This document shows, one piece after another, positions 32,956 through 50,831 of a DNA stretch of 64,000 nucleotides. Under the pieces are notes generated by a model. The model made no database searches and was not told the DNA's origin. It saw only the letters and a list, made by a program, of their open reading frames with translations. A program made the position numbers and the translations under genes. Source of the DNA: Carposina sasakii (lineage: Eukaryota > Arthropoda > Insecta > Lepidoptera > Carposinidae); the NCBI GenBank assembly GCA_014607495.2, contig CP053157.1:9052001-9116000 (forward strand), read 5' to 3'. Every line of letters begins with the position of its first letter. Within the stretch, counting starts at the first letter, position 1.

Positions 32956-32961
32956 TACGGA
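32956..32961. repeat. Left target-site duplication TACGGA
   Basis: TACGGA directly before the element; the identical six bases follow the right end at 50826-50831. Six bases is the size known for Polintons. Confidence 0.95.
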
Positions 32962-33159: not shown

Positions 33160-33239
33160 CATCTATTACGATATCAGCTGTGTAGAAAGAACTAGAAATT
33201 TGTATTCCAAATTGCTCACGCCTTTCACAGTTAAATAAA

Positions 33240-34200
33240 AAAAGATCTGTGATCAGATTGACTCGAAGACATTTATTTCAACTATCAAAATTTAGATCAG
33301 ATCGACTCGTCATTCTACAGAAAAATATAATCTCATCTTTAAATAATAATCTGCGACCAGATAGGCTCGAAGACACCAGAATTTCAAACTTAGATATTCT
33401 GATCAGATTGACTCGTGTCGTTCCACAGAAAACAAATATATTTTTATTATTACCATATTTCTGTGACCAGATAGGCTCGAAGACACCAGAATTTCAAACT
33501 TAGATATTCTGATCAGATTGACTCGTGTCGTTCCACAGAAAACAAATATATTTTTATTATTTTAATTATTACCATATTTCTGCGACCAGATTGGCTCGAA
33601 GACATCAGATTACCTCATGTCGTTCCACAGAAAACATATATATTTTATTATTTTAATGATTACCACATTTCTGCGACCAGATAGGCTCGAAGACACCAGA
33701 ATTTCAAACTTAGATATTCTGATCAGATTGACTCGTGTCGTTCCACAGAAAACAAATATATTTTTATTATTTTAATTATTACCATATTTCTGCGACCAGA
33801 TTGGCTCGAAGACATCAGATTACCTCATGTCGTTCCACAGAAAACATATATATTTTATTATTTTAATGATTACCACATTTCTGCGACCAGATTGGCTCGA
33901 AGACACCAGATTACTTGTATCGTTCCACAGAAAACATAAATTATTTTAAAATTTCAATGCTTACTATATTTCTGCGACCAGATTGGCTCGAAGACACCAG
34001 ATTGACTTGTGTCGTTCCACAAAAACATTAATTATTTTTAAATATAAATTATTACCACATTTCTGCGGCCAGATTGGCTCGAAGACACCAGATTGTCTCG
34101 TGTCGTTCCACAGAAAATAACAATTCTGTAACGAGATTGGCTCGAAGATATCATAATTTCAACAATTAAAATTCATGTCATTCCACAGAAAACAGAAATT
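33240..34200. repeat. Minisatellite array inside the Polinton left arm
   Basis: About nine irregular units of roughly 90-120 bp. Each contains a GACCAGATTGGCTCGAAGACA core and most a GTCGTTCCACAGAAAAC core; the first cores fall near 33354, 33465, 33583, 33675, 33793 and 33884. The units are separated by A/T-rich linkers. The 84-codon ORF at 33249-33503 is repeat-derived. Confidence 0.85.
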
Positions 34201-34314
34201 ATATTTTAATAATGAAAGAACACCACAATTTTGAAATTATTAAATTTCTTATCAGGTTAACTTTTATCTTTCTACAAAATATAGGTACCGCATAGTGTTA
34301 CATTTATAATTGAG

Positions 34315-34352
34315 TTCTGAAAATGCTTTTAACATAAAATAACTATTACTTA
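34315..34352 (-). repeat. Internal inverted copy of part of the TIR
   Basis: TTTTAACATAAAATAACTATTACT at about 34327-34350 equals the inner part of the right TIR and the reverse complement of 33105-33135 in the left TIR. The minisatellite array therefore lies between opposing TIR-derived segments. Confidence 0.75.
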
Positions 34353-34931
34353 CTGAAAGTAGGGATAAAATTCTGGACAGATTGTCTCAGGTTATTCCAC
34401 AAATTTACGCATAAACACAAAATCCATCAGAAATTTATCAATAACTTGTATACTAGACTTCTAACACGTCAGTGGTAAAAAATAATACATCGAATGAATA
34501 ATGAATGAAAAAAATAGTGATGGGACAGACGAGTAACGTCCCGCATCGAGTTGGATACTCGGGAACTCAGGTTCTGAATAGTTTTTAGGATGTCAACGAA
34601 ACATATTATATAACTAATGAGCAAAGATAGATTAGCTTAGAATCACTTTAAACATCAGTTTAGTGTAAACATAGAGTACCTATTTATCTATCTACATACC
34701 ATCAGAGTATAAAAATATTTTTGAAAATGATTTTCTTTCATCACTAGCTATATCATTTTAATTCATTGTTATGGTCTTAAGTGCCTACCTACGTCATATA
34801 CCTAAGTCCAACCTCCAAATCGAGTTTAGCACCTATTCGAATTTTAACTCGAGTTATTGCTAAGCAGCACATTATGATTGCACATCACTAAATACTAATA
34901 TTCTACTACGTTGCAGTTTTATGTAACATAT

Positions 34932-35187
34932 CAGGGAGAGTCAATTCTTATAAATTTTTAAGTCGAAACGCCACAACTAACGAACGTTAACGAAATGCGG
35001 TGCAAGCAATATATGCTTTGTACGCTTGAGTAATAAGGTATATTTTGGCAGGCATCGGTCACGAATATGATAGAATTAAACAAATATCTTTCTTGTGCTG
35101 AAATGAATGTCTAACTTTGTTTTGAGTGTCTACAACGGTTCCGTTTCGGCTTCATGCTAACTCAAAACTTTTCGAGAATTGGCCCCA
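34932..35187. mobile_element. MITE (GGGGCCAATTCTCGAAAAG ends) nested in the Polinton
   Basis: Ends are inverted repeats of about 35 bp (left GAGTCAATTC...; right ...CGAGAATTGGCCCC). The interior matches 57422-57697 (AAGCAATATATGCTT and GTATATTTTGGCAGGCATCGG). It must have entered after, or together with, the Polinton. Confidence 0.75.
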
Positions 35188-35500
35188 GAGCTGAAGCAAG
35201 TACAGTCACGTACACGAATAAATGTCTTCTAATGCCGTAGGAAGCGGGGTAGGTTTAATTAATAATTCTGTTACACCGTTATTTTTCAGATATGACTTTA
35301 TGTTCAATCTTGTGACTTACAACTGTATTTCTAACGCGTATACGTAAAAATATATTTAAAATTATCTACTTACATACATATCATATTATCATATCGTATT
35401 AAATGAAGTCGGTGAAAAAGTCATCCCAACGACTATCCGTATTAGAACCCAGTATTCATACTTAGAAAGTACCTACCATCATCTTTGTATTATCTTCGCA

Positions 35501-35562
35501 ATTCTACAAGCTGTTTTAGTTTTATCTTCGACTGTACATAAAACTAAAACAGCTTGCAGAAT
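35501..35562. repeat. 25-bp-arm hairpin
   Basis: 35501-35525 and 35538-35562 are reverse complements with one mismatch and a 12-nt loop. Non-coding; function unknown. Confidence 0.7.
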
Positions 35563-35743
35563 GTAATATGAAACTCTCGCCTTTGTGAGTTGTTATGACG
35601 CGGGCAGGATATTGTGAAATCGTAAAACGATATCTAAGCAAGTTAACTAAATCGTATGGCTTTGCTTGTTGATGGTTACTACTTTATCGTATTATAGTAT
35701 GAAACAAGAGCATCATCCTACAAATCTACCTAAGATACATATA

Positions 35744-36042
35744 ATGAAATTGTAACGGATCGATTTATGTACATGGAAAATATATTAAAAACATTATAAT
35801 GGGTGGTCCTTATTCACGTAAGAGAACCTAAAACAATGTTTTTCCATTTTGTCTGTATATCTGTATGACCGCATGTCCGTATGTCTTCATATCTGTATGT
35901 ATGTATGTATGTTTGTGCGCGCTAGTCTCTTTCAATGCAGTTTTCAGGAAAATATAGTGACAGGTCCTACACATACCTACACATACAGAAAACATAATAA
36001 AACGAATGAGCGCACGCGGACAGAGTCACGGGTGTTCACTAT
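35744..36042 (+). repeat. CGCGGACGGAGTCGCGGGCG-family repeat nested in the Polinton
   Basis: Starts AATGAAATTGTAACGGATC like the copy at 62476, and includes GCAGTTTTCAGGAAAATATAG and the CACGCGGACAGAGTCACGGG end. The 76-codon ORF at 35849-36079 is repeat-derived. Confidence 0.7.
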
Positions 36043-36166
36043 AATTATTATAAACGCGAAAGTTTGTAAGTATGGATAGATGTTTGTTACTATTTCATAT
36101 AAAACCTACTGAATGGATTTTAGTGAATACATAGGTAGATAGGTACATAAAGATCATACCCATTAT

Positions 36167-36390
36167 TCCTAAGGAGGTTGGGCAGAGGTATGCAAATTAC
36201 ACACCCACTTTTCATCAGTTACCCTATTAAGCCCTACGTGGTAAGTGGTGAGCCTACCACCGCTTTTCGAGCACCAATATGACAATCTAGCGACCAGTAA
36301 CGAATCCAAGGAAATATTTTCGTGCAAAATAGGTATTATAAGCTATTTAGCGTCAGAGCCTCGTTCGTTAAATAGCAAGTGAGGTTGACT
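36167..36390 (+). repeat. Interspersed repeat shared with 11500-11690
   Basis: Shares GAGGTTGGGCAGAGGTATGC, ACACCCACTTTTCATCAGTT and TTTAGCGTCAGAGCC in order. Another secondary insertion in the Polinton left arm. Confidence 0.6.
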
Positions 36391-36799
36391 TAGGGTCCCA
36401 AAGTATGAGTCGAAGCCACTTACAACCCTTTTTAATGAAACTTTACATTAATATAGCGTATACATCGGAATAATACATGATGAACTATGAACGCCTGCGC
36501 TAAGTTAATAGCAATTCATCTAACATCCCGGTTATTGTTACTTTTTGGCTGGCGCTCTTTCTCATTTAGTTGTTTGTGCACTGTCATTGCATTATCTAAA
36601 CAATAGTTATCCTAAGGATAGCGAGAGTGATAATAGATAGTTATGTATACCTTTGTTATCTATTTTTGTTAGTGGTGGCGATGCTATTAGTCTCCTCTGT
36701 TATCTAGAGCTCATAACTTGATAAACATAATGGATATTAAATAAGTATAACATTTTCTTATGGGAGATGATTCTAATGTCGTGAAGATCTATTTATCTT

Positions 36800-36982
36800 T
36801 GTGATGATGATGATGACTAACCTCGTCTGCTTTGCAAAGGGTAGAATCATTTTGCTATTTAGATATTCAAGTTGTTTGCTCTTTGCATTCGCGACAATTT
36901 CACAAAAAGCACTCCGTGGGAATTGAACCCATAACCTCCGGGTAGAAAGTTAAACTCTTACTACTAGACCACAGAGACTGTA
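36800..36982 (-). mobile_element. tRNA-derived SINE nested in the Polinton
   Basis: On the minus strand the head reads GTCTCTGTGGTCTAGTAGT (A-box region) with a B box GGTTCAATTCC near 36920. It ends in a short ATC-type repeat near 36805. It is a different family from the GACGGCCGATTGG SINEs. Confidence 0.7.
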
Positions 36983-37502
36983 AAGTATTGTATAAAATTT
37001 AGGTTTCAAACCATTTAATTCACTTAGGTTCGATTAATATTTACTTACGGATCTCTAAAACACGTGCGCTCGCGTCAGCAATATTGGTAATGCAAAGGTT
37101 TCGATTGATATTAAAATGAATTATGATTTGTATTATTTGTAATGACATATGACTTTTCTACCTTAAACACCAATATTACAATAAATTGGAACACTTTTTA
37201 AATTTTTCATCATTCTTCGGATTAATTTTGAATCCTCGAGTTCACTCGTCGAAAAAGTGGTACATACTTACTTATCTGCTGAGTCTAGCAAGAACCTAAA
37301 AATGTACGTAAGTATTTTTTATTAATTATTATTATTTTATTATTATTTATATATACTTCAACATATAGGTACTAATAATATAACTTTTTATGTTTTTATA
37401 AGTACTATTTTTATTCATCTTTTAATTTTCACACAGTTCACTCCCGTTATCGATCGATGTACTTATAGTAACTATCTCCTAACATGTTTTATTGTCTTAT
37501 AG
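36983..37502. other. Non-coding stretch before the first + gene
   Basis: No clear ORF. The missing 5' exon of the gene at 37503 should lie here or further left. The donor-like sequence ATGTAC|GTAAGT at about 37302-37313 does not join in frame with 37503. Confidence 0.4.
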
Positions 37503-38226
37503 GTCTGACTCCGAGTGTGAACATGAGGTGGTAGCAGCTGTTCAGCCTAAGAAAAAGACTTCAAGCAAGCGCAAGAATTCAACGGAACCGAGTTCAAGGT
37601 AAATAACATTTTGTTATCTAAACGCGGTGTCGGTTCAATTCTTAAGACAAACCTACTATAGTGATAAATAACTATGTTTATTTCAAAGATATTTTAATTC
37701 ATGCTTCATAAGTCACGATAAACCCTTGGGTTCGATTACCCGGTACGGCTATTATAGGGTTTCAAAACACAGATGTCTCTGTTTATTTTTAAGTTATAAT
37801 GTTTATATTTGTAACGTACATGTTAGTAAACTTTTCTGTTTTTCTTATAGTAACCCAAAAAAGACGACAGTGCCGTCTAGAGGGAACGAGGACATCTTCG
37901 GGTTGGAGGCGGGGACGTCATTGACGACTACATCCTCGAAGGAGGAGTTGACGTGCTCGCTGGTCAGCCTCGTCGCAAACGGGAAGGTGCGACGTACATC
38001 GTCGGTCACAGGAACACATTACGTGGAAATCAAGGTGTACGATACCGCTGATGCAGCCTCCCTTCGTCCGACGGACCGCTGGAAAAAAGCGTTGATCGCG
38101 CTAAAGGTGCAGCTGAACAAAGACTCTCCGCAGTGGCGTAAGCTGCAATCGTTTATGCACGTCACGCACGAACTTTTTAATGATTCGGAGCCCATTTTTT
38201 ATAGTTCTAACATTAATTTTAAGTAG
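37503..38226 (+). CDS. Spliced small Polinton gene of unknown function (3' exons)
   Basis: Two exons are supported: 37503-37600, after the acceptor TGTCTTATAG and before the donor GTAAATAA, and 37851-38226, after the acceptor TTTTTCTTATAG. Joined, they keep one frame across a split Ser codon, giving about 157 residues: a Lys/Ser-rich nuclear-signal-like stretch (PKKKTSSKRK), then a globular-looking domain of about 110 residues, ending NFK. Exon 37503 starts mid-codon, so at least one 5' exon is missing. The final exon is clearly richer in G+C than PolB, which may mean different ancestry. I do not recognise the family. A replication role, such as a terminal protein next to PolB, is only a guess. 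Confidence 0.55.
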
Positions 38227-38345
38227 GTTATATTTTAAATATATTTAATCTTTTACTTTAAAATAAATTCCTAATTTTTAAATGATATACTTAGTTTACT
38301 TTTTAAAAATATATAGATAACTTTGATAAGATAATATTTGCTTTT

Positions 38346-38353
38346 TATAAATA
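38346..38353 (+). promoter_or_regulatory. TATA-like box before PolB
   Basis: TATAAATA with 32 nt to the PolB ATG at 38386. Transcription starting 25-30 nt downstream would leave a leader of only a few bases. Similar spacing is seen before the penton and PLA2-like genes. Confidence 0.5.
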
Positions 38354-38385
38354 CTCAACCCGCACGTTAAATTTAATATTTAAAC

Positions 38386-41300
38386 ATGCCTTTCTGCACT
38401 GTATGCAATATAAGTATTGAGCGCAGTCATTGGGTTGGTCATCTACGCAGTACTGAACATAAAAATCAGAATGTTGTACCATTTTGCGAAGGAGTTGAGA
38501 TCATAAACTCTGCTTTCCGCAACCGTATATCCACATATAGAATTGCCGCTACAGAGCAGTTGCAGCAATATTCTCTTACCAATTTTTTTGATAGCATTCA
38601 TAAAAAAATTAAACATGTAATCGATTTATCTTTAAAAGAACATGTTTGTCTTAAAGTTAATTTTGAATTTTTCGCTTTATTCGCATTAGTTAAAAATGAT
38701 TCAAGTGAGATGAAATCTTTTAATACAAAAAACTTTATTTTGTACCGGAATTACGACTTTGATTCAATCATGTATGAGGCTAAGAACATTATTTCGAAAA
38801 AAATTGAAGAGTTTCAAGACCGTGATAGCGGTTGGACATTACTGAACAATTCTCATCTAGAAATAAATGTGAACAAGTATCAACCTTTAAGTGGTTCCAA
38901 ATACATTGTATTACCAGCTCCAATCAAAAACAAAAACGCTTGTGTCAACATTTGCAACAAGGACGATTATTGTTTTTTGTGGTCGGTTACTGCAGCTCTC
39001 TATCCAGCTCAAGCTCACCCTGAGAGAGTTACGTCATATCCTGATTTTAGAGACGTGTTAAACGTGCAAAACTTGACATTCCCACTGACTTTCTCAGCCA
39101 TTGCCCAGTTTGAAGAGAATAATCCTGAAATTTCTATATTTATATACGGTTTAAAAAACAATAAGATTGTTATAGGACCTCTGTACAAATCAAAGTATTT
39201 AAATAGGAAGGTCATTCATTTGTTGTATTTAGAAAAAGGTGACCTGTCTCATTATTGTTTAATAAAAGATTTATCACGACTTGTTAGGAGTCAAATAACA
39301 AAACACCATAGCAAACTTTATTTATGTGATACTTGTCTATTATTTTTTAATACGCCTGAACAAAAGAGCTCTCACAGTTGTGGAGGTATTGTTACTAGCT
39401 TACCACCAAAGGGTTCAGTTATAAAGTTTGAAAATTATATTAAAAAGCAACTTCTACCATTTGTTATATATGCCGATTTTGAAACAATGCTGGAACGATT
39501 CGATTCTTGCGAACCTGACCCAAGTAAAGCAAGCACAGTTCAGAAACAGCGTCATGTGCCCGTAGCGTTCGCGTACTATCTGGTTTGTGCATTAGATAAC
39601 AGTCGTAATCATTTCGTCTCCTATCGCGGTCCGGATTGTGTTAAAAAATTTGTAAAATCTATTTATGAAGACGCAAAAAGAGTTTATGAGATTTTAAATA
39701 TTGAGACTCCAATGATATTTACAGATGATGACTTATACGATTTTAAAAATGCTGAAACATGCCACATTTGTGATCACTTTTTATTAGGTGATAGAGTCCG
39801 AGACCATTGCCATGTAACTGGTAAATATCGTGGTGCAGCTCACCAGTACTGTAATCTACAGTTCAAGCTTCCGAAATATATGGTGGTATTTTTTCATAAC
39901 TTATCTGGTTATGATAGCCACCTTTTCATAAAAGAGCTGGGAGAAGCTCCTGGTGCAATTAAAATTATACCGAAAACAAAAGAAAAATATATTGCCATCA
40001 CTAAATACATTCCGATTTCAAAGAAAAAAACCTTTCAAGTTCGGTTTGTAGATTCTTTTCAATTTTTAGGTACAAGTTTAGAGAAACTAGCTAGTACATT
40101 GGAAAAGCATCAATTTATTCAATTAAAGTCACACTATCCTAGTGAAAAGCAGCATAGTCTACTTATGAGAAAAGGCGTGTACCCATATGACTATATGTCA
40201 CAATGGGATCGTTACGAAGAAACGTCACTGCCCACAAAGGAACATTTTTACAACTCCTTATCTGATGAATTGATTACGGATGAGGATTACATGCACGCTG
40301 TATCTGTTTGGTCAGAGTTCAATATTCAAAATATGGGTGCTTATACAGATTTATATCTTAAAACAGATGTATTGCTGTTAACCGATATTTTTGAAAGTTT
40401 TAGACAAACATGCAAACGGTACTATAACCTTGATCCGGCATTTTATTTTACAGCACCGAGTCTCTCATTTGACGCTATGCTTTTGAAAACTGGTGTTCAG
40501 TTGGAATTGATAAGTGATATAGAAATTTATAGAATGATACAAAAAGGTATCAGAGGAGGAGTTTGTATGTGCGCGAAACGTTACGCTAAAGCCAATAATA
40601 AATACTTAGAGAACTATGATTCCTCTAAACCAAGCTCATTTATCGTTTATTTGGATTGTAATAATTTATATGGATACAGTATGTGTCAATATTTGCCGCA
40701 ATCAAATTTCAGATTTTGCAGCCAAAATGAATTAGATTATTTGAAATTGCATATCAATGATATTAGTGACTCAGCAACATTAGGCTATATTCTCGAAGTA
40801 GATTTAATTTATCCTGACAGATTACATAGTGATCACAATGATTTACCATTTTGCCCTGAAAAATTTTCACCTCCTGGAGGTAAAAATAAAAAACTTATTC
40901 CAAACTTGTACGATAAATATCATTATGTAATTCATTACGTACATTTAAAAAAATGTTTACAACACGGCTTGGTGCTGAGAAAAATACACCGAGCCATCAT
41001 TTTTAATCAAGGCTGTTTTTTGAAACAATATATCGATCTTAACACCCATTTGCGTCAACAAGCAAAGTCGACATTTGAGCAAGATTTTTTCAAGTTATTG
41101 AACAATAGCATTTTTGGCAAAACATTAGAGGATAATGAAAAACGGGTTGACGTAAAGTTAGTGAATCAATGGAGTGACATATTTAATAAAACGAAAAAGT
41201 TAACTGGTGCAGAAAAATGTATATCGAGAGCTAATTTTCACAGTACTGCTGTATTCTCGGAAAATTTAGTAGCAATACAAATGACCCCCACTCACGTAAT

Positions 41301-41901
41301 CCTTAATAAACCTATACATATTGGGTTTGCTGTTTTAGAATTGTCCAAAAGTCATATGTACGATTTTCACTATTCTATTATGAAGCCATTCTATGCCGAT
41401 CGTATAGAAATGTGCTATACTGATACTGACAGTTTCGTTTATGATGTTAAGACTAACGACTTTTACAAAGACCTTAAACGGAATTTTATGCAGTATTTCG
41501 ACACTAGTAACTATGAATGTAGCAATGGTTATAATCTACCTATTATAAATAAAAAAGTCCCAGGTTTATTCAAGGATGAAATGGGTGGAAAAATTATTAA
41601 AGAGTTTGTTGGACTGCGTTCAAAGCTGTATTGTGTTAAAACGATAAACAAAACTATTAAAAAAGCTAAAGGTACTAAAAAGTGTGTAATAAAACAATTA
41701 AGTATGTCAGACTATAAAAGGGTTTTGCAGGATTGTAATATCATCCGCAAAAAAAATATCCTGTTTAGATCGATCAAACATGAAATATTCACACAAAGTG
41801 TAAATAAAATTGCGCTCTCTAGTAATGATGATAAAAGAGTAATATCCTCAGATAAAATAACTACAGTTGCATGGGGAAGTGTAAATATACTTAAATGTTA
41901 A
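38386..41901 (+). CDS. polB: Protein-primed family B DNA polymerase
   Basis: 1,171 residues and intact; it replicates the element from its ends. Exonuclease motifs: D364/E366 (ADFET), the HNLSGYD block ending at D510, and the YLKTD block with D661. Polymerase motifs: A with D757 (DCNNLYG), B at 903-911 (KLLNNSIFG), C with TDTDS at 1012-1016, and a downstream SKLY (1079-1082). N-terminal extras are a C2H2-like finger (C4, C7, H19, H25), a CFLW block (C196) and a second Cys pair (C314, C317). An inserted Cys/His module (C459, C462, H474, H476, C489) resembles an HNH/endonuclease VII zinc site. It is the only large + strand gene of the element; AATAAA lies near 42024. Confidence 0.95.
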   Translation: MPFCTVCNISIERSHWVGHLRSTEHKNQNVVPFCEGVEIINSAFRNRISTYRIAATEQLQQYSLTNFFDSIHKKIKHVIDLSLKEHVCLKVNFEFFALFALVKNDSSEMKSFNTKNFILYRNYDFDSIMYEAKNIISKKIEEFQDRDSGWTLLNNSHLEINVNKYQPLSGSKYIVLPAPIKNKNACVNICNKDDYCFLWSVTAALYPAQAHPERVTSYPDFRDVLNVQNLTFPLTFSAIAQFEENNPEISIFIYGLKNNKIVIGPLYKSKYLNRKVIHLLYLEKGDLSHYCLIKDLSRLVRSQITKHHSKLYLCDTCLLFFNTPEQKSSHSCGGIVTSLPPKGSVIKFENYIKKQLLPFVIYADFETMLERFDSCEPDPSKASTVQKQRHVPVAFAYYLVCALDNSRNHFVSYRGPDCVKKFVKSIYEDAKRVYEILNIETPMIFTDDDLYDFKNAETCHICDHFLLGDRVRDHCHVTGKYRGAAHQYCNLQFKLPKYMVVFFHNLSGYDSHLFIKELGEAPGAIKIIPKTKEKYIAITKYIPISKKKTFQVRFVDSFQFLGTSLEKLASTLEKHQFIQLKSHYPSEKQHSLLMRKGVYPYDYMSQWDRYEETSLPTKEHFYNSLSDELITDEDYMHAVSVWSEFNIQNMGAYTDLYLKTDVLLLTDIFESFRQTCKRYYNLDPAFYFTAPSLSFDAMLLKTGVQLELISDIEIYRMIQKGIRGGVCMCAKRYAKANNKYLENYDSSKPSSFIVYLDCNNLYGYSMCQYLPQSNFRFCSQNELDYLKLHINDISDSATLGYILEVDLIYPDRLHSDHNDLPFCPEKFSPPGGKNKKLIPNLYDKYHYVIHYVHLKKCLQHGLVLRKIHRAIIFNQGCFLKQYIDLNTHLRQQAKSTFEQDFFKLLNNSIFGKTLEDNEKRVDVKLVNQWSDIFNKTKKLTGAEKCISRANFHSTAVFSENLVAIQMTPTHVILNKPIHIGFAVLELSKSHMYDFHYSIMKPFYADRIEMCYTDTDSFVYDVKTNDFYKDLKRNFMQYFDTSNYECSNGYNLPIINKKVPGLFKDEMGGKIIKEFVGLRSKLYCVKTINKTIKKAKGTKKCVIKQLSMSDYKRVLQDCNIIRKKNILFRSIKHEIFTQSVNKIALSSNDDKRVISSDKITTVAWGSVNILKC

Positions 41902-42410
41902 ATTTGATGGGATGAGTATTACTTATAGTATCTAGTAATGTAGTTAGCTATAATATACTATGTAATATAGATATAAGTGCCTACTTATAATTTGTAGTAT
42001 ATTTTAAGGTTTTATTTTAGTTAAATAAATTAACATAATATTATAAATTGTTTCCTTTTTATTCCCATATCAAAAATATCTTTACACCAGGTCACGTGAG
42101 GTTGTATTTCTACTTGTTTTAACATGTCTGATACCGAGCAATGACCTACGATGCATGCTGTAAGTAAACTATACCTAACAACAGCGTACAAATCTATGTA
42201 TCGGAAAATGAAACCTAAAGCTAATGAATTATAATTTATGTTCAGTCAACACTTTGCTCGAACTAAACGCTGACACCTATCGGTAAAACATAGGTACAGG
42301 AGCTATGGTGATAAATTTTTTAATATCATTACTTATTTGATTGACATCGCGTTCGCTCACGCATACCTAAGGTAATCCTGACATCTCTTTGATATTGAAA
42401 AATAGCTAAA
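41902..42410. other. PolB 3' flank
   Basis: AT-rich, with an AATAAA polyadenylation signal near 42024. No ORF. Confidence 0.5.
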
Positions 42411-42865
42411 ATGGTATGTACCTAGTAATTATGTTTTGATTAAAATTAATTTGTGTATAATATATTTTAATATTACTCACCTACTTATTTATTATATTTT
42501 TGTTTCAGGAAAATCTTAATGGGAATTTAAGTAATACCTTTTACTGGCCTCTTACCCCACCTACAAGTCCACAACCCCGCCGCCGACGTTCACCTACACC
42601 TCATCCCACGCTGCCGGTATTACGAGCGAAAAGGAATAAGAAGTCGGTTGAGAAAAACATCTCGTCCTATGTTATTAGCAAGCCGCCGCCGCCGCATTCG
42701 GGATTGCGACTCATTAAAGTAGAAGTGTTTGATTTATGTGAAAACAGTGATAGTGCGTCAATTAGTGCTCAATACGTGCAATTAGACGCGGTAGATGAAA
42801 TTATGGATTTAGCAGAAAATTTAGTGAAAAAAATATCTAGAAATATTTTAAACAAACATATTTGA
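42411..42865 (+). CDS. Spliced small Polinton protein, one-codon first coding exon
   Basis: The frame at 42509 follows a strong acceptor (TATTTTTGTTTCAG) and has no suitable ATG of its own. An ATG at 42411-42413 is immediately followed by a consensus donor, GTATGT. Removing 42414-42508 (95 nt) joins ATG to the frame and gives 119 residues. The N half is rich in Pro, Arg and Ser (TPPTSPQPRRRR, KPPPPH) and likely disordered and basic; the C half is acidic, then amphipathic. No family recognised. It lies downstream of PolB on the same strand and converges with the capsid block. Nuclear or DNA-binding action is a guess from the basic stretch. Confidence 0.6.
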
Positions 42866-43287
42866 GATAATTATTTTTTAAATATCATATCTTTTATGTA
42901 CTTAACTATTAAGTACTGTTCAAGTACCTGCCTATATTAGAGATGAAGGATTGTGAATGTGATGCTAATCAAATAAATAATCGTTGCTTTAAAGTTTTCT
43001 TTTATTCAAAAACCCGTAATTACATAAATCTTCAAGCAAACATAGAACGTAATTAACGTGCGATCGGTGTTAGCGTTTAATTCATACCGTTCATAACGCT
43101 AGGTCAGAGTGTTGCGTACTCGCTCTGTTTGATAGGACAGGTATAGCCTGGTTCAGCACAAAACAACGCGGCTGGAACGCTTTAACGCGCTAACCTAACG
43201 TATGTTAATTACGTCTTATGTTTGCTGAGGGCTTAAATCAAACACATAGGTATAACTCATTTATATATTATATGTATTTTTCATTAC
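42866..43287. other. Convergent intergenic region
   Basis: Separates + and - transcription. AATAAA-like signals: + at about 42974, and - (as TTTATT) near 42999. No ORF. Confidence 0.5.
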
Positions 43288-43782
43288 TTAATCTAATTCA
43301 ACAACATTTTTATTTTCGATATACCATTTTTTAATACTTAGTACATTTTTTAAAGCACAGTGCTTTGTGTGGAAAATACAGTTAAAATTATAATCTTTAC
43401 AATATTGGTTACATAATTGTAATAAATTACTACACCCCTTTTCTCCAACATCTTGTGGATTACAATTTGGTGTCAATTCCGTCAACCACTTTATTTTTTC
43501 CCCACCTTTCATTAAAACTGTTTTATGCTGTAAGTATGGTGAGATAATACGTTTAAATTCTCTATAATCGATGTGTCCCTCACTCCAATAAATGCCACGA
43601 TTTCTTTCTAACCATTTCACTTGCTTTTTTTCTTGTGCAGATAAGTAGTTAAACGAATATGGTGGTTTAATTAAAAATGTCTGTGTATAACACTGAGTAG
43701 CTATCGCCATCTCTTTGATAATAAATGTATTGCTTAAATCTTTAAATCCTTGGATATCCACTATTATTATATCAGGATTCAT
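43288..43782 (-). CDS. Conserved Polinton protein, possibly RNase H/exonuclease-like fold
   Basis: 164 residues. It opens with a DIQGF strand-like motif (D8) and a KEMAI block, followed by a KPPYSF block, WLERN, a KGGEKIKWL block and a Cys-rich C-terminal third ending in CALKN. I recall similar proteins in many invertebrate genomes beside Polinton genes, with an Asp/Glu layout reminiscent of 3'-5' exonucleases; activity is not established. It is last in the chain penton - 47-codon ORF - capsid - this gene, and its ATG overlaps the capsid stop by 4 bp (ATGA, 43779-43782), suggesting coupled translation. Confidence 0.7.
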   Translation of the reverse strand: MNPDIIIVDIQGFKDLSNTFIIKEMAIATQCYTQTFLIKPPYSFNYLSAQEKKQVKWLERNRGIYWSEGHIDYREFKRIISPYLQHKTVLMKGGEKIKWLTELTPNCNPQDVGEKGCSNLLQLCNQYCKDYNFNCIFHTKHCALKNVLSIKKWYIENKNVVELD

Positions 43783-44993
43783 GATATTTTCTTGACTAGA
43801 CCGCTCAATGGTTTATACTCGACTATACAATCGTTAAGGATAAGACAGTAAGCTGAAGTATTATCAGGTAAATCAGTATCACTCTCTATTTCCACTCTTA
43901 CGTCCACTACAGCTCCCGTCTTCAAGTTATCTACTTGTCTAGAACAGTCGATAACAAACAATGGTGCAATATCCTTAAATTGTTTGAGGTTAAGTAAGGG
44001 TTCCATGCGACGTCCGAAATAAGACTGTTGAAATTTAATATATTGCTCGTATAATAAACCGATATTATCTTTAGAAAAACTTATATTAAGGTTTTCGTAT
44101 GGAAAATAAGTCGAATTAAGATAAACCTTTACCTCCCGTAAATTACAATGATCAAAACGAGACATATCTGCGCTCGCATTATTTTTCCTGTTAGTTTGCA
44201 GACCTATTATCACATATCTAGGTTTTTCGATTTGAGTTGAAGTTTTGAGAGACCATGTATGTTTACTAGTTTTTGGTAATAAAGGATATTCATATAGATC
44301 CCAATTTCTGTACACTAATTGTATCGATCTGTCTTTGTCTAAAACTTTTAACAAAGTAAGTTTTTCTCTATCAGATACTTTTACATGTGGAACACGCCAG
44401 ATAATTTTGGTGATTTCGATATCGTCTAATACTTCACCTGTGTTCAGTTTCACAGCATTCAAGTTAGTATTACTTCTCAACAAGATTAATTCATGTTTAC
44501 AGTTTATTATAACTTTTTGGTAATCTTCAGCGAATCCCAGAATATAAGAGAGTGGTATAGAAGCAGAAAAATAACCAGAATTTACATTTTTCGTACCATC
44601 AATATCCCAGCCCCAAGCTTTAGACATTCTCGACTCGTTTTCATTCATAGAAAGTAATGATTTCATGGTAGTAGTGATACCTGCATTTTTTATCTTATCA
44701 ATTTCTATACCATTTAGCTCATATCGAATTTCTTGAAAGAAGTAGAGCAAAGGATTATTTGTAAAATGAACACTCGAAGCTGCGTCTTTGCTATCTTTTT
44801 TGTTTACGATAACTTTACCTTCCAAATATAATGTACTCGCTGATGGTAATATGTATAAATCTTGTTGATTAATCGGTATGCGAATCTCATCGTTCCTGTT
44901 GAAACTAGTTATATATGGTTTGTAAGAATGAAATTCTATGCTGTCCACTGTATTATCATAGGTCGGAGTTGACAATATGTCTAACATGTTCAT
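43779..44993 (-). CDS. Putative major capsid protein (double jelly-roll type)
   Basis: 404 residues from ATG 44993. The sequence is rich in predicted beta strands throughout, as expected of jelly-roll folds, and I recognise C-terminal blocks (RFDHCNLREVKVYLNS, PLFVIDCSRQ, AYCLILND) as those of an abundant invertebrate Polinton family. The size is close to compact double jelly-roll capsid proteins and below many Polinton capsid proteins. The position next to the penton-like gene fits. Both ends overlap neighbours by ATGA. The exact fold cannot be proved from reading alone; another structural role is possible. Confidence 0.7.
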   Translation of the reverse strand: MNMLDILSTPTYDNTVDSIEFHSYKPYITSFNRNDEIRIPINQQDLYILPSASTLYLEGKVIVNKKDSKDAASSVHFTNNPLLYFFQEIRYELNGIEIDKIKNAGITTTMKSLLSMNENESRMSKAWGWDIDGTKNVNSGYFSASIPLSYILGFAEDYQKVIINCKHELILLRSNTNLNAVKLNTGEVLDDIEITKIIWRVPHVKVSDREKLTLLKVLDKDRSIQLVYRNWDLYEYPLLPKTSKHTWSLKTSTQIEKPRYVIIGLQTNRKNNASADMSRFDHCNLREVKVYLNSTYFPYENLNISFSKDNIGLLYEQYIKFQQSYFGRRMEPLLNLKQFKDIAPLFVIDCSRQVDNLKTGAVVDVRVEIESDTDLPDNTSAYCLILNDCIVEYKPLSGLVKKIS

Positions 44994-45133
44994 TTTATCA
45001 ATCCGATTTGTTTAAGAAAGTTTATATTTTCTTGAGTAAGTTTACTTTTAGGTTTAGATGTTCCTTTTGAGATAGCTTGATGTGAACTGATCTTTTTACT
45101 TTTAGAACTTACATATTTATTATAGACTATCAT
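44990..45133 (-). CDS. 47-residue basic protein joined by ATGA overlaps on both sides
   Basis: Below common ORF cutoffs. ATG at 45131-45133 overlaps the penton stop (ATGA at 45130-45133), and its TGA at 44990-44992 overlaps the capsid ATG (ATGA at 44990-44993). The protein is Lys/Ser-rich, with a C-terminal amphipathic segment, LTQENINFLKQIGLIK. The perfect fit between two genes argues that it is real. It could be a small virion or scaffold protein, or the reading frame may serve mainly as a translational link. Family not firmly recognised. Confidence 0.75.
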   Translation of the reverse strand: MIVYNKYVSSKSKKISSHQAISKGTSKPKSKLTQENINFLKQIGLIK

Positions 45134-45801
45134 TTTTTCTTCAGATGTAAATAAAGTTGTACTTCCTCACCTCTTAAATTAACCAAATTATTGTGTATAT
45201 CCAGCAACCGGATATTAACACTATTAATGTTGTTCTGATTGATTGGAAAATAAATAATATTTTTTGGAACTTCTACGATTCTATATCCAGGTGGCACGTT
45301 TGGAGCGAACTCGTAAATTATATGACTAGGTTCTCCGTTAATGAATGATCCGCTTACTATATCACATTCAACCCTCACCACTGTCGTCGATAAAATGTTG
45401 ACAGGAAGATGTGACACATGTATTATATTGGCTTTGAGAGACTGCTTGTCAAAACCAAGCAATGATCCGAGTGAATTATTTTTCTCAAAATTTACATCTT
45501 TGGTGCAAAATATAGATGTTTTTAATGTATTATTGTTACAATTTAAATGAAAAGATGCATCTTTTATATTACTTTTTATGTAATCATTAATATCTTGAAG
45601 TTCGTACACTCCTTCTGGTATTTCAATTAATTTATTTTGGTCGTAATGAAATTTATTATTTCTACTGTCAATATTTGGAATAGAATTAAACGTAGACAAG
45701 TACACTAGTGCACATTCATATTCACCATCAAGTTGAAGAGTGGGTGAATAAAACGTGGATAAGACAGATGAGTTTCCAGTTATGGATAGAGTAAAGGTCA
45801 T
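45130..45801 (-). CDS. Putative penton/minor capsid protein (single jelly-roll type)
   Basis: 223 residues from ATG 45801. It has the block order that I recognise from the smaller Polinton capsid protein: a Ser-rich start with DGEYECALV, NSIPN, a short NNKFHYD turn, IEIPEGVYEL, GSLLGFD, HLPVNI, VECDIVSG, PPGYRIVEVP and a C-terminal LVNLRGEEVQLYLHL strand pair. The family is thought to form pentons at capsid vertices. It is first in the ATGA-linked capsid chain, with a TATA-like box 34 nt upstream of the ATG. Confidence 0.75.
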   Translation of the reverse strand: MTFTLSITGNSSVLSTFYSPTLQLDGEYECALVYLSTFNSIPNIDSRNNKFHYDQNKLIEIPEGVYELQDINDYIKSNIKDASFHLNCNNNTLKTSIFCTKDVNFEKNNSLGSLLGFDKQSLKANIIHVSHLPVNILSTTVVRVECDIVSGSFINGEPSHIIYEFAPNVPPGYRIVEVPKNIIYFPINQNNINSVNIRLLDIHNNLVNLRGEEVQLYLHLKKK

Positions 45802-45834
45802 TGTGAAAATGATAAATAAAATAACGAAGATTAA

Positions 45835-45842
45835 CTTATATA
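45835..45842 (-). promoter_or_regulatory. TATA-like box before the capsid gene chain
   Basis: TATATAAG on the minus strand, 33-34 nt before the penton ATG. No other TATA-like box is needed for the following three overlapping genes, which fits a single polycistronic transcript. Confidence 0.5.
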
Positions 45843-45868
45843 GACGTTTGCTGTTTATTCCAAAATCT

Positions 45869-46228
45869 TTATAGAAATTTTATACATAAATGTCCACAGT
45901 TAACTTCATTAAAGTTTTGATATCTATTATAATTATATAAAATATTTTTATTCTTGAGATACTGAAATAATTCTGACGGTGGTTTCAAATTACCAAAACT
46001 GTCAAAATATTCACAATAATTTTTAACTTTGACGTAAGCTACCCAATGAGTACCATTATTAACATGATTATCTAAATTGACAATTCCGCATTCAATGCGT
46101 TTTACTTTTGTTGGTAACTGATCTTTCATGAACACTCCACGAAAATATGGAATATTTTTTGCATATTTCAGAATATCTATATTACTCAAAGCACGCTTGG
46201 GTAGCCTACTAATTAGTTTTTTGAACAA
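45869..46228 (-). CDS. Adenain-like cysteine protease, probably made by -1 frameshifting
   Basis: About 119 residues of C5/adenain-type protease. Catalytic residues are readable: His in GTHWVAY, Asp in YFDSFG, Gln in RYQNF and the Cys in NCGHLC. Such enzymes mature capsid precursors in related viruses. The frame is open only from 46243 (TAG before it) and has no ATG until residue 34, which would remove conserved sequence (the part leading to PYFRGVFM). The position-1 codon at 46226-46228 is TTG. The frame begins in the overlap with the PLA2-like gene, exactly at a -1 slippery site. A fusion product is therefore likelier than a free start; splicing or TTG initiation are alternatives. Confidence 0.85.
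   Translation of the reverse strand: MFKKLISRLPKRALSNIDILKYAKNIPYFRGVFMKDQLPTKVKRIECGIVNLDNHVNNGTHWVAYVKVKNYCEYFDSFGNLKPPSELFQYLKNKNILYNYNRYQNFNEVNCGHLCIKFL
46213..46222 (-). promoter_or_regulatory. Candidate -1 ribosomal frameshift site A AAA AAC followed by UAA
   Basis: On the minus strand the PLA2-like frame reads TCA AAA AAC TAA. The heptamer A AAA AAC (46222-46216) is phased exactly as the X XXY YYZ consensus needs. A one-base backward slip gives next codon CTA in the protease frame. The same heptamer is used by some retroviral gag-pro junctions. I see only weak hairpins downstream (an AAGC/GCTT stem about 17 nt on), so a stimulatory structure is not shown. Confidence 0.75.
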
Positions 46229-46923
46229 TTCACAAATAATCCACTACCTTTTTTGTACGGTTTGATGTATAAACCTTTGCCTATTGATATAGTTTCCTTT
46301 CGTTGTGATTCAGGCCTCTGACGATTTTGTCGAATGTCGTTGATGGTACGAGCTAACGTTGCTGCTCCTCCTGCTAAACTTCCTAAAGCTGATAATCCAG
46401 CGAATATCGGTATTAGGGGAAGAATTCCTCCTGTTTTGGGTAAAGGAATGACACGTGGTACTCGGATTTTATGTTTTTTTGGAAAAAGTTTTTTAGCAGC
46501 TAAATATGCATATTTAATAGCTGTGTTTGTGTTTTTAGGTTTCTTTCTTCGAATTTGAGATCGTATATTTGATACTAATCCTTTAAATGTCTTAACACCG
46601 GCTCCCATCTTTAATTTAGTTTTCATTACTTTACTCACTAACCATGATGCAAGTTTTTCTCCTTTACCTGCATCTTTCGATTTTAGACGTTGTTTAGCCA
46701 TATTCAACAGTTCTAAGTCTGCTTTATGTCTCACAGGTAAATCCGAATTAATATAAGCAATGTCGTGCAACTTGCAAGCCTCATCTAACGCGTTAACTCC
46801 TTTATCACCACGCAATAAGCGCTCTTGTAATCTAGTTCCAGGTCCACAATAGTTGTATCCAGGTAAATGTGCTTCAAATGGTAGATTATTTATGATCGTG
46901 TTTACAAGTCCTCCACCACGCAT
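46213..46923 (-). CDS. PLA2-like virion protein
   Basis: 236 residues from ATG 46923. Residues 20-60 form a phospholipase A2-type core like that of parvovirus VP1: the Ca-binding loop YNYCGPGT (23-30) and the helix LDEACKLHDIAY with catalytic His53-Asp54. In virions such domains open the endosomal membrane. The rest is basic, with a long Gly/Ala/Leu hydrophobic segment (about 155-181) and a basic C terminus. Residues 1-5 (MRGGG) match the adenain cleavage pattern MxGG|x. The last codons form the frameshift heptamer leading into the protease. The 56-nt gap from the integrase contains a TATA-like box. Confidence 0.85.
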   Translation of the reverse strand: MRGGGLVNTIINNLPFEAHLPGYNYCGPGTRLQERLLRGDKGVNALDEACKLHDIAYINSDLPVRHKADLELLNMAKQRLKSKDAGKGEKLASWLVSKVMKTKLKMGAGVKTFKGLVSNIRSQIRRKKPKNTNTAIKYAYLAAKKLFPKKHKIRVPRVIPLPKTGGILPLIPIFAGLSALGSLAGGAATLARTINDIRQNRQRPESQRKETISIGKGLYIKPYKKGSGLFVNCSKN

Positions 46924-46959
46924 CGTCTAATAACTAATGTTATAGCATTTAACTATACG

Positions 46960-46970
46960 CTTAATATATA
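46960..46970 (-). promoter_or_regulatory. TATA-like box before the PLA2-like gene
   Basis: TATATATTAAG on the minus strand, 36 nt before the ATG at 46923, directly after the integrase stop. Confidence 0.45.
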
Positions 46971-46979
46971 CCTACTTTA

Positions 46980-47918
46980 TTAATTCACTATAGCATTTTT
47001 ATCAATCCAGCTATTACTATCATTGTTTAGACCAAGCCACTTCACGAACAATTTATTACCTTTCTTTTTAATAACTTTCTCTATTAAATAAATATTATAA
47101 TATTTTGTTTTTTGAAGTTCTTGTTCATAAAAAGTACCTAATATAGGTTGTTTTTGTTGGTCTTCTATTAAATAAGTTATAGGGCAGGTATTATTAACTT
47201 TTTTGATGATAAATATTTCCGTTGACCAGTTTGGTGTGTACCCCTTTTCAAAGCATTTTTTATATTTACTAATACGAACATAATCACCGACATGAAACTT
47301 ATTTTTGTAATTATTCTTCCTGTTTTTATTTTGTGATTTTAAAATATTTTTCATTACTAACGACTTGTTACAATTATCAACATCGGATGGTTTGAAGTTA
47401 GTGGTACTATGTTTTGTATTATTATATGTATACATTACATTAGTCAGCAGCTTACCTATCCATTTATAACTTCCATTTAGACTAAATTTTTTAAATAAGT
47501 TATTTTTTAGTGTTTTAATTAATCGTTCAACTATAGATGCCTTTTTAGTTGAATAAGTTGAATAATGTTTAATATTTACAGACAATAACAACCTTCTAAA
47601 AACATCATTATAGAACTCTGTTCCCATATCAGTTTGTAGATAATTAGGGTGACGATGATATTTTTGTAATATGCTTGCGAAGGCATTTGAGATTTCGGTT
47701 TTAGTTTTTGATTTTAGTGGTTTTGCCCAAGCAAATTTTGAGAAACAATCTATCACAACTAAAATATAATTAAATCCAGAGTTAAACTTTTTTAAATTTT
47801 GGAAATCAATCAGATCAGCTTGCCATAAGTCATCAATTCCTTTCAACACAACAGACCTTCGAATGAAATTTTTTCGCGCAGCTTTATGGATTTCATTAAC
47901 AACTTGTTGTTTTATCAT
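46980..47918 (-). CDS. Retroviral-type integrase with C-terminal chromodomain
   Basis: 312 residues. The rve catalytic core has D35 (WQADLID), D97 (LQTDMGTEF) and E131 (SIVERLIKTLK), with 33 residues between the last two. An SH3-like segment (about 208-241, HVGDYVRIS) follows, then a chromodomain (about 272-312, with VKWLG and SNSWID). In relatives this enzyme inserts the linear DNA and makes the 6-bp duplication seen here; the chromodomain may steer it to marked chromatin. An N-terminal HHCC zinc domain is not apparent. The start ATG overlaps the upstream stop as TAATG. Confidence 0.93.
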   Translation of the reverse strand: MIKQQVVNEIHKAARKNFIRRSVVLKGIDDLWQADLIDFQNLKKFNSGFNYILVVIDCFSKFAWAKPLKSKTKTEISNAFASILQKYHRHPNYLQTDMGTEFYNDVFRRLLLSVNIKHYSTYSTKKASIVERLIKTLKNNLFKKFSLNGSYKWIGKLLTNVMYTYNNTKHSTTNFKPSDVDNCNKSLVMKNILKSQNKNRKNNYKNKFHVGDYVRISKYKKCFEKGYTPNWSTEIFIIKKVNNTCPITYLIEDQQKQPILGTFYEQELQKTKYYNIYLIEKVIKKKGNKLFVKWLGLNNDSNSWIDKNAIVN

Positions 47919-48289
47919 TATGAAGGTCTAACTTGGTCCAAGTTCGCGTTACTGTAAATATTCTGAATATACTGATCGATAATATGTGGTATAGTTACTT
48001 TTAAAGCTTTTATCATTGTTTCAATATTATGTAAAATATTTGTATGTGAATTGTTAAGCAATGAGTCAACTTCCTCTTTTATGTAAAATTTCGATACAAT
48101 TTTATCAACATATTCTTTGTTTACAATATCATCTAATTCAGTAGGCATTCTTATACCCCTCATTCTCGCTGTTTTTAAATTAAATTCACCATTTTCCAAT
48201 TTCAGTATATTATTATTATTTTCATTTGAAATCATGTCCATAAACCGCATTCTTTTGTGAACGTGATGTCCGAATTTATCGATATTCAT
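47918..48289 (-). CDS. Conserved Polinton protein, fibre-like N-terminal features
   Basis: 123 residues from ATG 48289. It starts MNIDKFGHHVHKR, a block I recall from small Polinton proteins, then a short beta-like stretch and the motif DDIVNKEYVD, which resembles the repeated NKEYVD/NKKYVD motif of viral tail and fibre proteins. The C-terminal half looks helical. A virion fibre or attachment role is a possibility only. It is directly upstream of the integrase and shares one base with it (TAATG), so both probably come from one mRNA. No TATA-like box in the 64-nt gap before it. Confidence 0.65.
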   Translation of the reverse strand: MNIDKFGHHVHKRMRFMDMISNENNNNILKLENGEFNLKTARMRGIRMPTELDDIVNKEYVDKIVSKFYIKEEVDSLLNNSHTNILHNIETMIKALKVTIPHIIDQYIQNIYSNANLDQVRPS

Positions 48290-48353
48290 GTTGATATCGG
48301 ATAAGTTGAGAGGTTGAAAGTAAAGTGAGCTAATCTAGGTTTAACATCGACAT

Positions 48354-49292
48354 TTATTGATTGATAATACCACCCTCACGTAATTCTTCTACAATAGATA
48401 TTATTTCGTTATCTAACCCAGTGTTACCAGCATCTTTGGATGCAATCAACAGTTTTAATCTATCTACAAGTTCGTTCGGATCATTCCAATACACAAAATC
48501 TATATTTTTCTTCCATTGCTTCCTAATAGGTAAACCTTCTCCTTTTCTTTGTGTGATGGTACTAGGAGACTCTTTACTCATACGGAATAATGGTTTAATA
48601 ATTTGCAAGTACTTCTGACCCTTATTACTTTTTATAGCCTTTTCAGGATCATAGTCTCGACGATGCGCATTAGTATCTATTAACATAGTCTTATATTTTT
48701 TTAAATCGTCACTAGTTATAATACTTAGATCAGGGTTTTTTTGGAGCAAAAGTTGTTTCAAGCCCGGTGTAGTTACATACGTATTTCCTGCTACAGCAAT
48801 AGTATTATCATTAAGATCGATTGTACTCGAACCAAGCATTAATTTTCCATTTGTAATTCTTACTCCAAAAGGTACATTATCTAGTACCTCAGAAGATAAA
48901 GACCAAGATGATGTATTTTTTCCAACATAAGAATCCATAGACTTAAAAGATTCGTTTCCGATAGAAGTGTTATCATCAGTTTCATCATTATTGATTTCCT
49001 CTTCCTCGGATGCATAATCGTCAATAGTGATGCTTGGCTTTCTTTTTAATGTTTTATTCATGAAAGACTTATTACCATCCTTCATTTTTGACGTTATTAG
49101 GCGTTCACTTGATTTCTTATTAATTTCTAAGTTTTTGTTGCGGTGAACAATTTCATTGAGAGGATCTGTTACAGGTTTAAAGACCGATTCCAATGTTTTG
49201 TTACGATCCGTCTCGAGATCACGCATTTTACGAACTTTTCTCTTTACAGCTTCAGCAGCGTTCACAACTTTGTGTTTTAATGATTGTTCCAT
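48354..49292 (-). CDS. Conserved Polinton protein of unknown function
   Basis: 312 residues from the first ATG at 49292; the longer frame to 49316 would start with GTG. The N third is basic, followed by an acidic Asp/Glu/Asn-rich stretch that is probably disordered. The C-terminal 190 residues form the conserved part: VPFGVRI, TPGLKQLLLQKNPDL, then VYWNDPNELVDRLKLLIASKDAGN and EIISIVEELREGG. I recognise this end from many invertebrate Polinton loci but know no function. It lies between the ATPase and the fibre-like gene; a virion core or scaffold role is conceivable. Confidence 0.8.
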   Translation of the reverse strand: MEQSLKHKVVNAAEAVKRKVRKMRDLETDRNKTLESVFKPVTDPLNEIVHRNKNLEINKKSSERLITSKMKDGNKSFMNKTLKRKPSITIDDYASEEEEINNDETDDNTSIGNESFKSMDSYVGKNTSSWSLSSEVLDNVPFGVRITNGKLMLGSSTIDLNDNTIAVAGNTYVTTPGLKQLLLQKNPDLSIITSDDLKKYKTMLIDTNAHRRDYDPEKAIKSNKGQKYLQIIKPLFRMSKESPSTITQRKGEGLPIRKQWKKNIDFVYWNDPNELVDRLKLLIASKDAGNTGLDNEIISIVEELREGGIINQ

Positions 49293-49357
49293 TTTTAAAT
49301 TTGTTATACTATCCACTGCGTATTAATCAATAATAATGTGGTAAGAATAAAACATTC

Positions 49358-49366
49358 GTATATATA
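49358..49366 (-). promoter_or_regulatory. TATA-like box before the 312-residue gene
   Basis: TATATATAC on the minus strand, 65 nt before ATG 49292. A similar TATATAA lies near 50142-50148, about 65 nt before the ATPase ATG. Confidence 0.35.
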
Positions 49367-49389
49367 CCTAGATAGTATTTATGTAACAA

Positions 49390-50076
49390 TCAATCAAAGA
49401 CTACAAAAGTGTCAAATTTGTTACGATAGCATCCTTTGTTCTTGCTGCAATCTTTGTTGATTACTAAGTAATTATATGGTTTCTCCCAAATTCTTGAACA
49501 CATTTTTCGAAACTCATACCACGTCATATCAGTGTAAGCGTGTTCATCGTAGATATGTTTCATATTGATTTCGTCTTGCTTAAAAATAATTATTAAATTA
49601 GCATTATCCCTAATTAGTTGTTTAGGAATTTTACTGTAGGTTTGATTTAAATAGAAGGAATCAATATTTTTATGCCTACCCATGGCAAAATAATCTCGGA
49701 CATTATTTTGATTTTCACAAGCAATATCATCGAATATTATTACAGAATGAGGTTTGGCATCATGTGTACTCAATACTTGATCATTTTCACTAAACTTTAG
49801 AAATGATACATCAGGCACTCTTTTCAAAACTGACTCTAGAAAAATATACTTTGGTTGATAAAGGGTTTTGGAATAAACGTAAATATTTTTGAAGTTCAGC
49901 CCATTTTCATGTAAAATTAAACCAATCATTAAATTAGTCTTCCCACAATTTGAAGGTCCACAAATAATACAACGAATTGTATTCGGCAATAGTTTGTTAT
50001 GACGGTGACTTACATTTTGTGGCTCGATGCAAATATTTTTAACGCATAATGTTTGAGGTTGTTTTATAAATTTCAT
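49390..50076 (-). CDS. Genome-packaging ATPase (FtsK/HerA, A32-like)
   Basis: 228 residues from ATG 50076. The frame is open further up to 50220, but that extension begins with TTG and is Ile-rich and unlike the family. Walker A is GPSNCGKT (40-47) and Walker B is VIIFDD (112-117), followed by a polar sensor-like YLNQTYSKIP (132-141) and RDNANLIIIF. Proteins of this group pump DNA into preformed capsids; its presence supports virion formation. It is the first minus-strand gene from the right end, divergent from the 84-residue gene. Confidence 0.92.
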   Translation of the reverse strand: MKFIKQPQTLCVKNICIEPQNVSHRHNKLLPNTIRCIICGPSNCGKTNLMIGLILHENGLNFKNIYVYSKTLYQPKYIFLESVLKRVPDVSFLKFSENDQVLSTHDAKPHSVIIFDDIACENQNNVRDYFAMGRHKNIDSFYLNQTYSKIPKQLIRDNANLIIIFKQDEINMKHIYDEHAYTDMTWYEFRKMCSRIWEKPYNYLVINKDCSKNKGCYRNKFDTFVVFD

Positions 50077-50252
50077 AATAATTTGTCTTCTTACCAGTAT
50101 GGACGACAATGGAATGATGCTTATTATATTTTTTACATTATTATATACAAGTATATTTAAGTTTGTAATTTTCGTAAATCTTTTCACTATTGTAATATGA
50201 ACACAGGCGGTTGGACGCAAAGCAGGAATAAAATATTAACACAAATACAAAC

Positions 50253-50507
50253 ATGACACTATGTAAAGAAGTTATTCAGTCGTTAGATAAATCGATTATT
50301 CTAAACCACTTTACTAATGATATCAGAAAGTGGTACATAAATGGTTTATTACCTCAAAGCTTGATCGAAGACAAAGATATTTTCCCATACTTTACGCCTT
50401 GTGATGGACATCAAAAGAATCACAAATTAGAAGATTACGATCAACCAGACGGAGTTCTGCCGATGATCGCTTTTTGTTTTTTATGTGGCTATAAAACTCA
50501 AAAATAG
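50253..50507 (+). CDS. Small Cys/His protein near the right terminus
   Basis: 84 residues from ATG 50253, with a strong context and no frame breaks. The C-terminal half holds C50, H53, H57 and C75/C78 (positions approximate), which could bind zinc. It is the only right-arm gene on the + strand and ends 120 bp before the right TIR. Not recognised. It may be an accessory or regulatory protein. Confidence 0.6.
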   Translation: MTLCKEVIQSLDKSIILNHFTNDIRKWYINGLLPQSLIEDKDIFPYFTPCDGHQKNHKLEDYDQPDGVLPMIAFCFLCGYKTQK

Positions 50508-50627
50508 AATCAATCGCGAAACAAATATGATTACTTACACGGGCACGATATGCTTGCTCTTCGTACGTTCTATGTACAGAAATATATAATCAAAATTAAT
50601 ATTGTTCTCCTTACAATACTCTTAGAC

Positions 50628-50825
50628 TTATGTTATAATTTAATAGCTGTTCTGAATTTTAACATAAAATAACTATTACTGTTTTAAGATTATAGAAATG
50701 TAAACATGAGTGATGTGATACAATGGTGGCACGCTTCGACGAGGGAGCTATGTAAGTCAATCAAAATTAATTGCTGTTATTGGGCACACCCAAAATTGGG
50801 ATGGTGTGCCCAATAACTTACTACT
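50628..50825 (-). repeat. Right terminal inverted repeat (198 bp)
   Basis: Reverse complement of 32962-33159 with about 6 mismatches. Contains the matching subterminal hairpin at 50777-50816 and ends CTTACTACT. Confidence 0.95.
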
Positions 50826-50831
50826 TACGGA
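50826..50831. repeat. Right target-site duplication TACGGA
   Basis: Exact copy of 32956-32961. Confidence 0.95.

Follow-up and report, generated by a model that had tools for sequence, protein, structure and literature searches.

The window, i.e., the 64,000-nt stretch of Carposina sasakii DNA that was analyzed (GCA_014607495.2, CP053157.1, 9,052,001-9,116,000; coordinates below are positions in this stretch), contains a whole Polinton/Maverick element of the adintovirus type (Table 1). Two sets of features by which such elements are recognized were found. The element ends in terminal inverted repeats of 202 nt that are 97% alike and is flanked by a perfect 6-bp target duplication, TACGGA, at 32956-32961 and 50826-50831; furthermore, it encodes a double-jelly-roll capsid protein, an rve integrase, and an adenain-like protease (PRO). 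Long open reading frames (ORFs) that may encode the protein-primed DNA polymerase B (PolB) and the packaging ATPase are also present, with Pfam matches that lie below the cut-off or point to other domains. The PolB label is given to a 1174-aa ORF in which no PolB Pfam match was found, and rests partly on the sequence YTDTDS, which we take to be a polymerase motif. The 249-aa ORF directly 3′ of the protease is, judged from its position, perhaps the minor capsid (penton) protein. The element looks intact, and a decayed copy was set aside as unlikely because the repeats are 97% alike, the 6-bp duplication is perfect, and the long ORFs are preserved. The integrase ORF starts just before the catalytic core and is preceded by an overlapping ORF at 47918-48334; the N-terminal zinc-binding part that integrases usually carry is apparently missing from it. 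An imperfect inverted repeat with 46-nt arms (76% alike, 100 nt apart) lies at 43035-43226, just beyond the end of the genes on the capsid side.

Table 1. Features of the Carposina sasakii element and of the junction between its PLA2-domain and protease genes.
Feature	Position	Strand	Basis and remarks
Whole Polinton/Maverick (adintovirus-type) element, 17,864 bp	32962..50825		Inverted repeats and target site duplication
1174-aa ORF taken for PolB	38377..41901	+	Endonuclease_7, E 9.2e-5, just below cut-off
Double-jelly-roll major capsid protein	43779..45011	-	PF21738, E 1.2e-110
249-aa ORF directly 3′ of the protease	45130..45879	-	Without Pfam match
Adenain-like protease (PRO) frame, -1 relative to PLA2	45869..46243	-	Only ATG is codon 39 (46127-46129)
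TAA stop of the PLA2-domain frame, adjoining the heptamer	46213..46215	-	Sequence
A AAA AAC slippery heptamer in 0 phase, abutting the stop	46216..46222	-	Sequence; Lys-Asn tail in 120/120 listed relatives
TAG closing the protease frame upstream	46244..46246	-	Sequence
PLA2-domain protein gene, ATG 46923-46921	46213..46923	-	PF08398, E 2e-11
Integrase	46980..47927	-	rve, E 5.1e-10; chromo domain, E 1.8e-4, below cut-off
ORF taken for the packaging ATPase	49390..50235	-	Weak: ATPase_2, E 4.5e-4, below cut-off; label inferred

The protease is adenain-like (peptidase C5) by profile and predicted fold. Its profile matches 1avp (E 4.5e-4), and its predicted fold (mean pLDDT 87.2) has 4piq_A as the best PDB match by Foldseek (E 8.4e-5, TMq 0.61); against Pfam PF00770 it scores 14.8 bits, below the curated cut-off of 21.3. 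H66, D81, Q109, and C116 are invariant in 24 aligned sequences, and we take them to be the catalytic His and Cys, the conserved Gln, and the acidic residue of adenain, which together with the fold are the features expected of this family. The PLA2-domain protein begins with MxGGGLVN (consensus of 30 sequences; in the window from 46923), a possible target of the protease that resembles the adenain cleavage pattern (M/I/L)xGG-x.

The PLA2-domain frame, which runs on the minus strand, ends in TCA AAA AAC TAA, and the perfect A AAA AAC heptamer that the sequence-only reading had placed directly before the stop is present there. A slip of one base back leads, as that reading stated, into the protease frame, which is open across the heptamer and closed upstream by the TAG that it had named. 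Furthermore, its statement that no protease ATG occurs until conserved sequence has been lost holds for the window: the only ATG falls past the LPxRxL motif, and the earlier residues L14, P15, L19, and D23 are invariant in 24/24 aligned sequences, i.e., the window and 23 chosen from 120 relatives, among which relatives with late called starts are not represented. A heptamer of the form X XXY YYZ in 0-frame phase and an open -1 frame that lacks an AUG of its own are the marks of a eukaryotic -1 programmed frameshift site, and the junction is very probably such a site. Most ribosomes would terminate at the TAA next to the heptamer and release the PLA2-domain protein, whereas a minority would slip back by one base on AAA AAC, enter the protease frame, and produce a PLA2-protease fusion. 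In this element, and in many relatives, the protease would come mainly or entirely from the fusion, which would bring it into the particle attached to the PLA2 protein; this might set a low, fixed protease dose and package the enzyme as a fusion. What is observed is the junction sequence, the relation of the two frames, the lack of an early protease ATG, and the conservation at the protein level; the slippage, its rate, and the carriage are inferred.

How much weight the single sequence bears can be estimated by shuffling the codons of the PLA2 ORF. Among the shuffled sequences, 1.1% contained AAAAAAC in phase at some point of the overlap, 0.13% had it immediately 5′ of the stop, and 10.7% contained some heptamer of the shape X XXY YYZ (Y = A or T). 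The slippery shape alone is weak evidence because in-phase shapes also occur in other genes of the element, including 14 in the 1174-aa ORF. Because of these shuffle figures, the single sequence by itself constitutes moderate evidence, and the case is carried by conservation in relatives.

The conservation of the heptamer, a check proposed in the sequence-only reading, was found at the protein level. Among the best 120 of 1927 PLA2 matches, which are related sequences and therefore not independent counts, a Lys-Asn (KN) tail is present in all 120: it stands at the exact C-terminus in 114, and the other six end in KNM, KNL, KNVQ, KNC, KNY, and KNL, i.e., with one or two extra residues. The close relatives are known as proteins only, and the third bases and the choice between AAC and AAT are deduced from them. 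The residue before KN in the 114 exact tails is S in 73, T in 16, P in 15, Q in 4, A in 2, and L, E, G, or K in one each; all 114 can be encoded by an NNA codon, although residues that have no such codon make up 22% of these proteins and occupy 28/114 and 35/114 of the next two positions upstream. Because the residue before KN always has an NNA codon, the tails point to NNA AAA AAY and hence to the heptamer A AAA AA(C/T); a C-terminal protein motif would not require a restriction of this kind. The inferred codon phase also bears on a different account, in which RNA polymerase slips on the A run and adds one A to some transcripts, yielding the same fusion. Six A in the window and 11 A in a distant viral contig (L009, see below) would suit such slippage, and one added A gives the same frame change. 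However, polymerase slippage needs no codon phase, whereas the run in the relatives has a single inferred one (NNA AAA AAY); furthermore, the A runs are not lengthened, Lys preceding KN in only 1/114 relatives. We regard this account as improbable.

An equally improbable alternative is that the protease has its own start, at an upstream ATG, GTG, or TTG, at a near-cognate codon, or by reinitiation after the PLA2 stop, and that the A run merely encodes Lys-Lys (KK) in the protease frame. Judged from the window sequence, a near-cognate start may be possible, since the protease frame has TTG as codon 6 and, likewise near its beginning, ATT as codons 2, 3, and 11. The called starts of the protease relatives (the best 120 of 1249 matches) were compared along a tree calculated from 100 columns from the FRGV motif onward, with the start region excluded; it should be noted that an initial M in a database entry can represent ATG, GTG, or TTG alike. 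The window is grouped with 58 relatives (support 87/95), although many forks are unresolved and no strongly supported set holds the window, and one sequence (P0030) that joins this group weakly was counted among the other 62. A called start 0-4 residues before LP is found in 53/62 relatives outside the group vs. 17/58 inside (Fisher p 3e-10, with relatedness ignored). Outside the group, we read the protease as having an ordinary start. Of the 58 inside it, 25 are called with a start 5′ of KK, 17 with one in the short stretch between KK and LPxRxL, and 16 with none before LPxRxL; 17 of the 25 upstream starts are equidistant, and the position is common within some subclades. This scatter, in which many starts are late, agrees with the conserved lack of a protease ATG that was to be checked, and we read the start inside the group as mostly free of constraint, while the shared distance in some relatives may mean that normal initiation of the protease takes place there too.

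The junction itself can be followed in 20 PLA2/PRO pairs, which were matched by equal length of the longest contig, with adjacency assumed, and which all belong to the window's tree group, so that PLA2 tails are seen for that group alone. In six pairs the called protease start precedes KK, and A AAA AA(C/T) in -1 relation is the only sequence that fits both reading frames; the called start of one of them (P0002) must be TTG rather than ATG, which speaks against an own ATG there. In another six the called start lies between the heptamer and LPxRxL, and in eight the first called start comes after LPxRxL; the pair P0056/P0170, for which no compatible DNA was found at an unrelated KK inside the protease, is counted among these late starts. 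KN is kept by all 20 PLA2 partners, at the very end in 19 and as KNVQ in one. The upstream and near starts, their shared position in some subclades, the TTG of the window, and the listing of the protease as an ORF of its own in Spodoptera frugiperda Mavericks (in the available text of PMC5803895) are what an own start would predict. By contrast, it accounts poorly for the 8/20 pairs and 16/58 group members with no start called before LPxRxL, and a start located after KK would leave the A run without a coding reason, yet KN is kept in 14/14 such PLA2 partners. Furthermore, Cys and Trp are absent from the 40 residues before KN in 106/120 listed PLA2 tails, and because of this no ATG, GTG, or TTG is possible there in the -1 frame.

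Less probable still, and hardly to be expected, is that Lys-Asn serves as a functional tail of the PLA2 protein, for example in sorting or packaging, with the heptamer as a by-product and the protease start lost by decay. Such a motif would account for Lys-Asn throughout the 120 listed relatives; however, it gives no reason why the residue in front should always be one that an NNA codon can encode, or why further residues follow KN in 6/120, and decay of the start is at odds with an intact element. Splicing at the junction was also considered; it seems unlikely, as it leaves the conserved codon phase unaccounted for.

At the DNA level, conservation of the site is represented by L009, the IMG/VR contig IMGVR_UViG_3300046323_000841, whose protease is 34% identical to that of the window. 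Three codons before its end, the upstream ORF contains A AAA AAC in phase (2986-2992); the protease occupies the -1 frame, which is open from 2983, shortly ahead of the heptamer, and lacks an ATG upstream of VFM. The heptamer sits in a run of 11 A, a kind of run prone to assembly error, and L009 counts as one supporting case. In the region 2363-3411 the A11 run occupies a comparable place between a gene and the protease, and the product of the upstream gene is glycine-rich and of no assigned family; no PLA2 match was found for this upstream ORF, and its product has one database match, 100% identical and probably from the same virus. No further protease relative was found in the viral contigs scanned (a second record, L010, is the L009 contig again), and the phage records scanned gave no match. 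A viral contig with a 31% PLA2-like match (L001), in which the ORF beside the match is presumably a capsid gene and no protease was recognized by eye, was rejected, and seven short matches in bacterial records of genome contigs (L002-L008) were set aside.

A stimulatory RNA structure a few nucleotides downstream is usual, though not universal, at eukaryotic -1 sites. The pseudoknot search that had been proposed for the region downstream of the junction gave nothing above shuffled sequence: in a simple scan just downstream of the site in the window, the best pseudoknot was matched or beaten by 74/100 shuffles and the best stem by 79/100, and in L009 the corresponding figures were 24/100 and 12/100. 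The 91-nt downstream fold of the window has a z of -2.31, with 4/200 shuffles as good, a value owed mainly to a hairpin approximately 60 nt away. The site may work on the heptamer alone, or, as a speculation, the abutting stop, deduced for 114/120 listed relatives, may act as the pause. A farther-reaching version of the frameshift reading seems doubtful, namely that the whole group has lost the protease start, that -1 slippage is the sole source of the enzyme, that the stop replaces a pseudoknot as the pause, and that L009 does the same behind a different gene.

The sequence-only reading knew of no description of such a signal in Polintons or adintoviruses. This stands for the combination itself, since no case of a PLA2-PRO frameshift was found in the literature searched, in a search that was not exhaustive; it does not stand for -1 sites in general, as the available text of a 2024 preprint predicts them toward the 3′ end of the Penton genes of adintoviruses and also names fusions of hexon to adenain ("Hexain") (PMC11071296). 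Those cases share with the present one the virus group, the location near the 3′ ends of virion genes, and, as mentioned there, an adenain fusion, whereas the upstream gene differs, and neither a conservation test nor a PLA2-PRO case appears in the available text (PMC11071296). Frameshifting of the -1 type is a known mechanism, and here it would act in a setting where it had only been hinted at before. Spodoptera frugiperda Mavericks 1 and 2 likewise combine a CAP with a PLA2 domain and an adenain-like PRO of approximately 133 aa (Table 2 of that paper, in which, as available, the start position of the ORF is not given) in the same type of element; as listed there they are separate ORFs, whereas the junction here is read as a frameshift, and in the main text as available the whole word "frameshift" is absent and "frameshifts" occurs once, regarding errantiviruses (PMC5803895). 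The C-terminus of one Spodoptera frugiperda CAP from the database (P0144) is PKN. According to the available text, Mavericks are transcribed in a Spodoptera frugiperda cell line (PMC5803895), which makes direct testing possible. If the frameshift reading is true, a Polinton lineage sets protease dose and packaging in the retroviral manner, through a frameshift where a virion gene ends; the reading would also explain the scattered and late called protease starts and correct the annotation of many related elements.

One relative outside the window's group (P0103) carries the tail of a PLA2 protein and PRO in one open frame. It resembles the predicted product in joining a PLA2-protein tail to the protease and shows that such a fusion is possible without a shift; unlike in the window, no frameshift is needed, and the PLA2 domain was not found in the called protein. 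In retroviral gag-pro, an X XXY YYZ heptamer lies at the end of a structural gene, the protease is in the -1 frame, and the fusion is a minority product. At the present junction, too, the heptamer stands where a virion gene ends, the protease is in the -1 frame without a start of its own, and a minority fusion is predicted. The junction differs in that no downstream structure was found here, in that the element is of a dsDNA virus-like type with a PLA2-domain protein in place of Gag, and in that the protease is a cysteine protease of the adenain type and the stop directly follows the heptamer.
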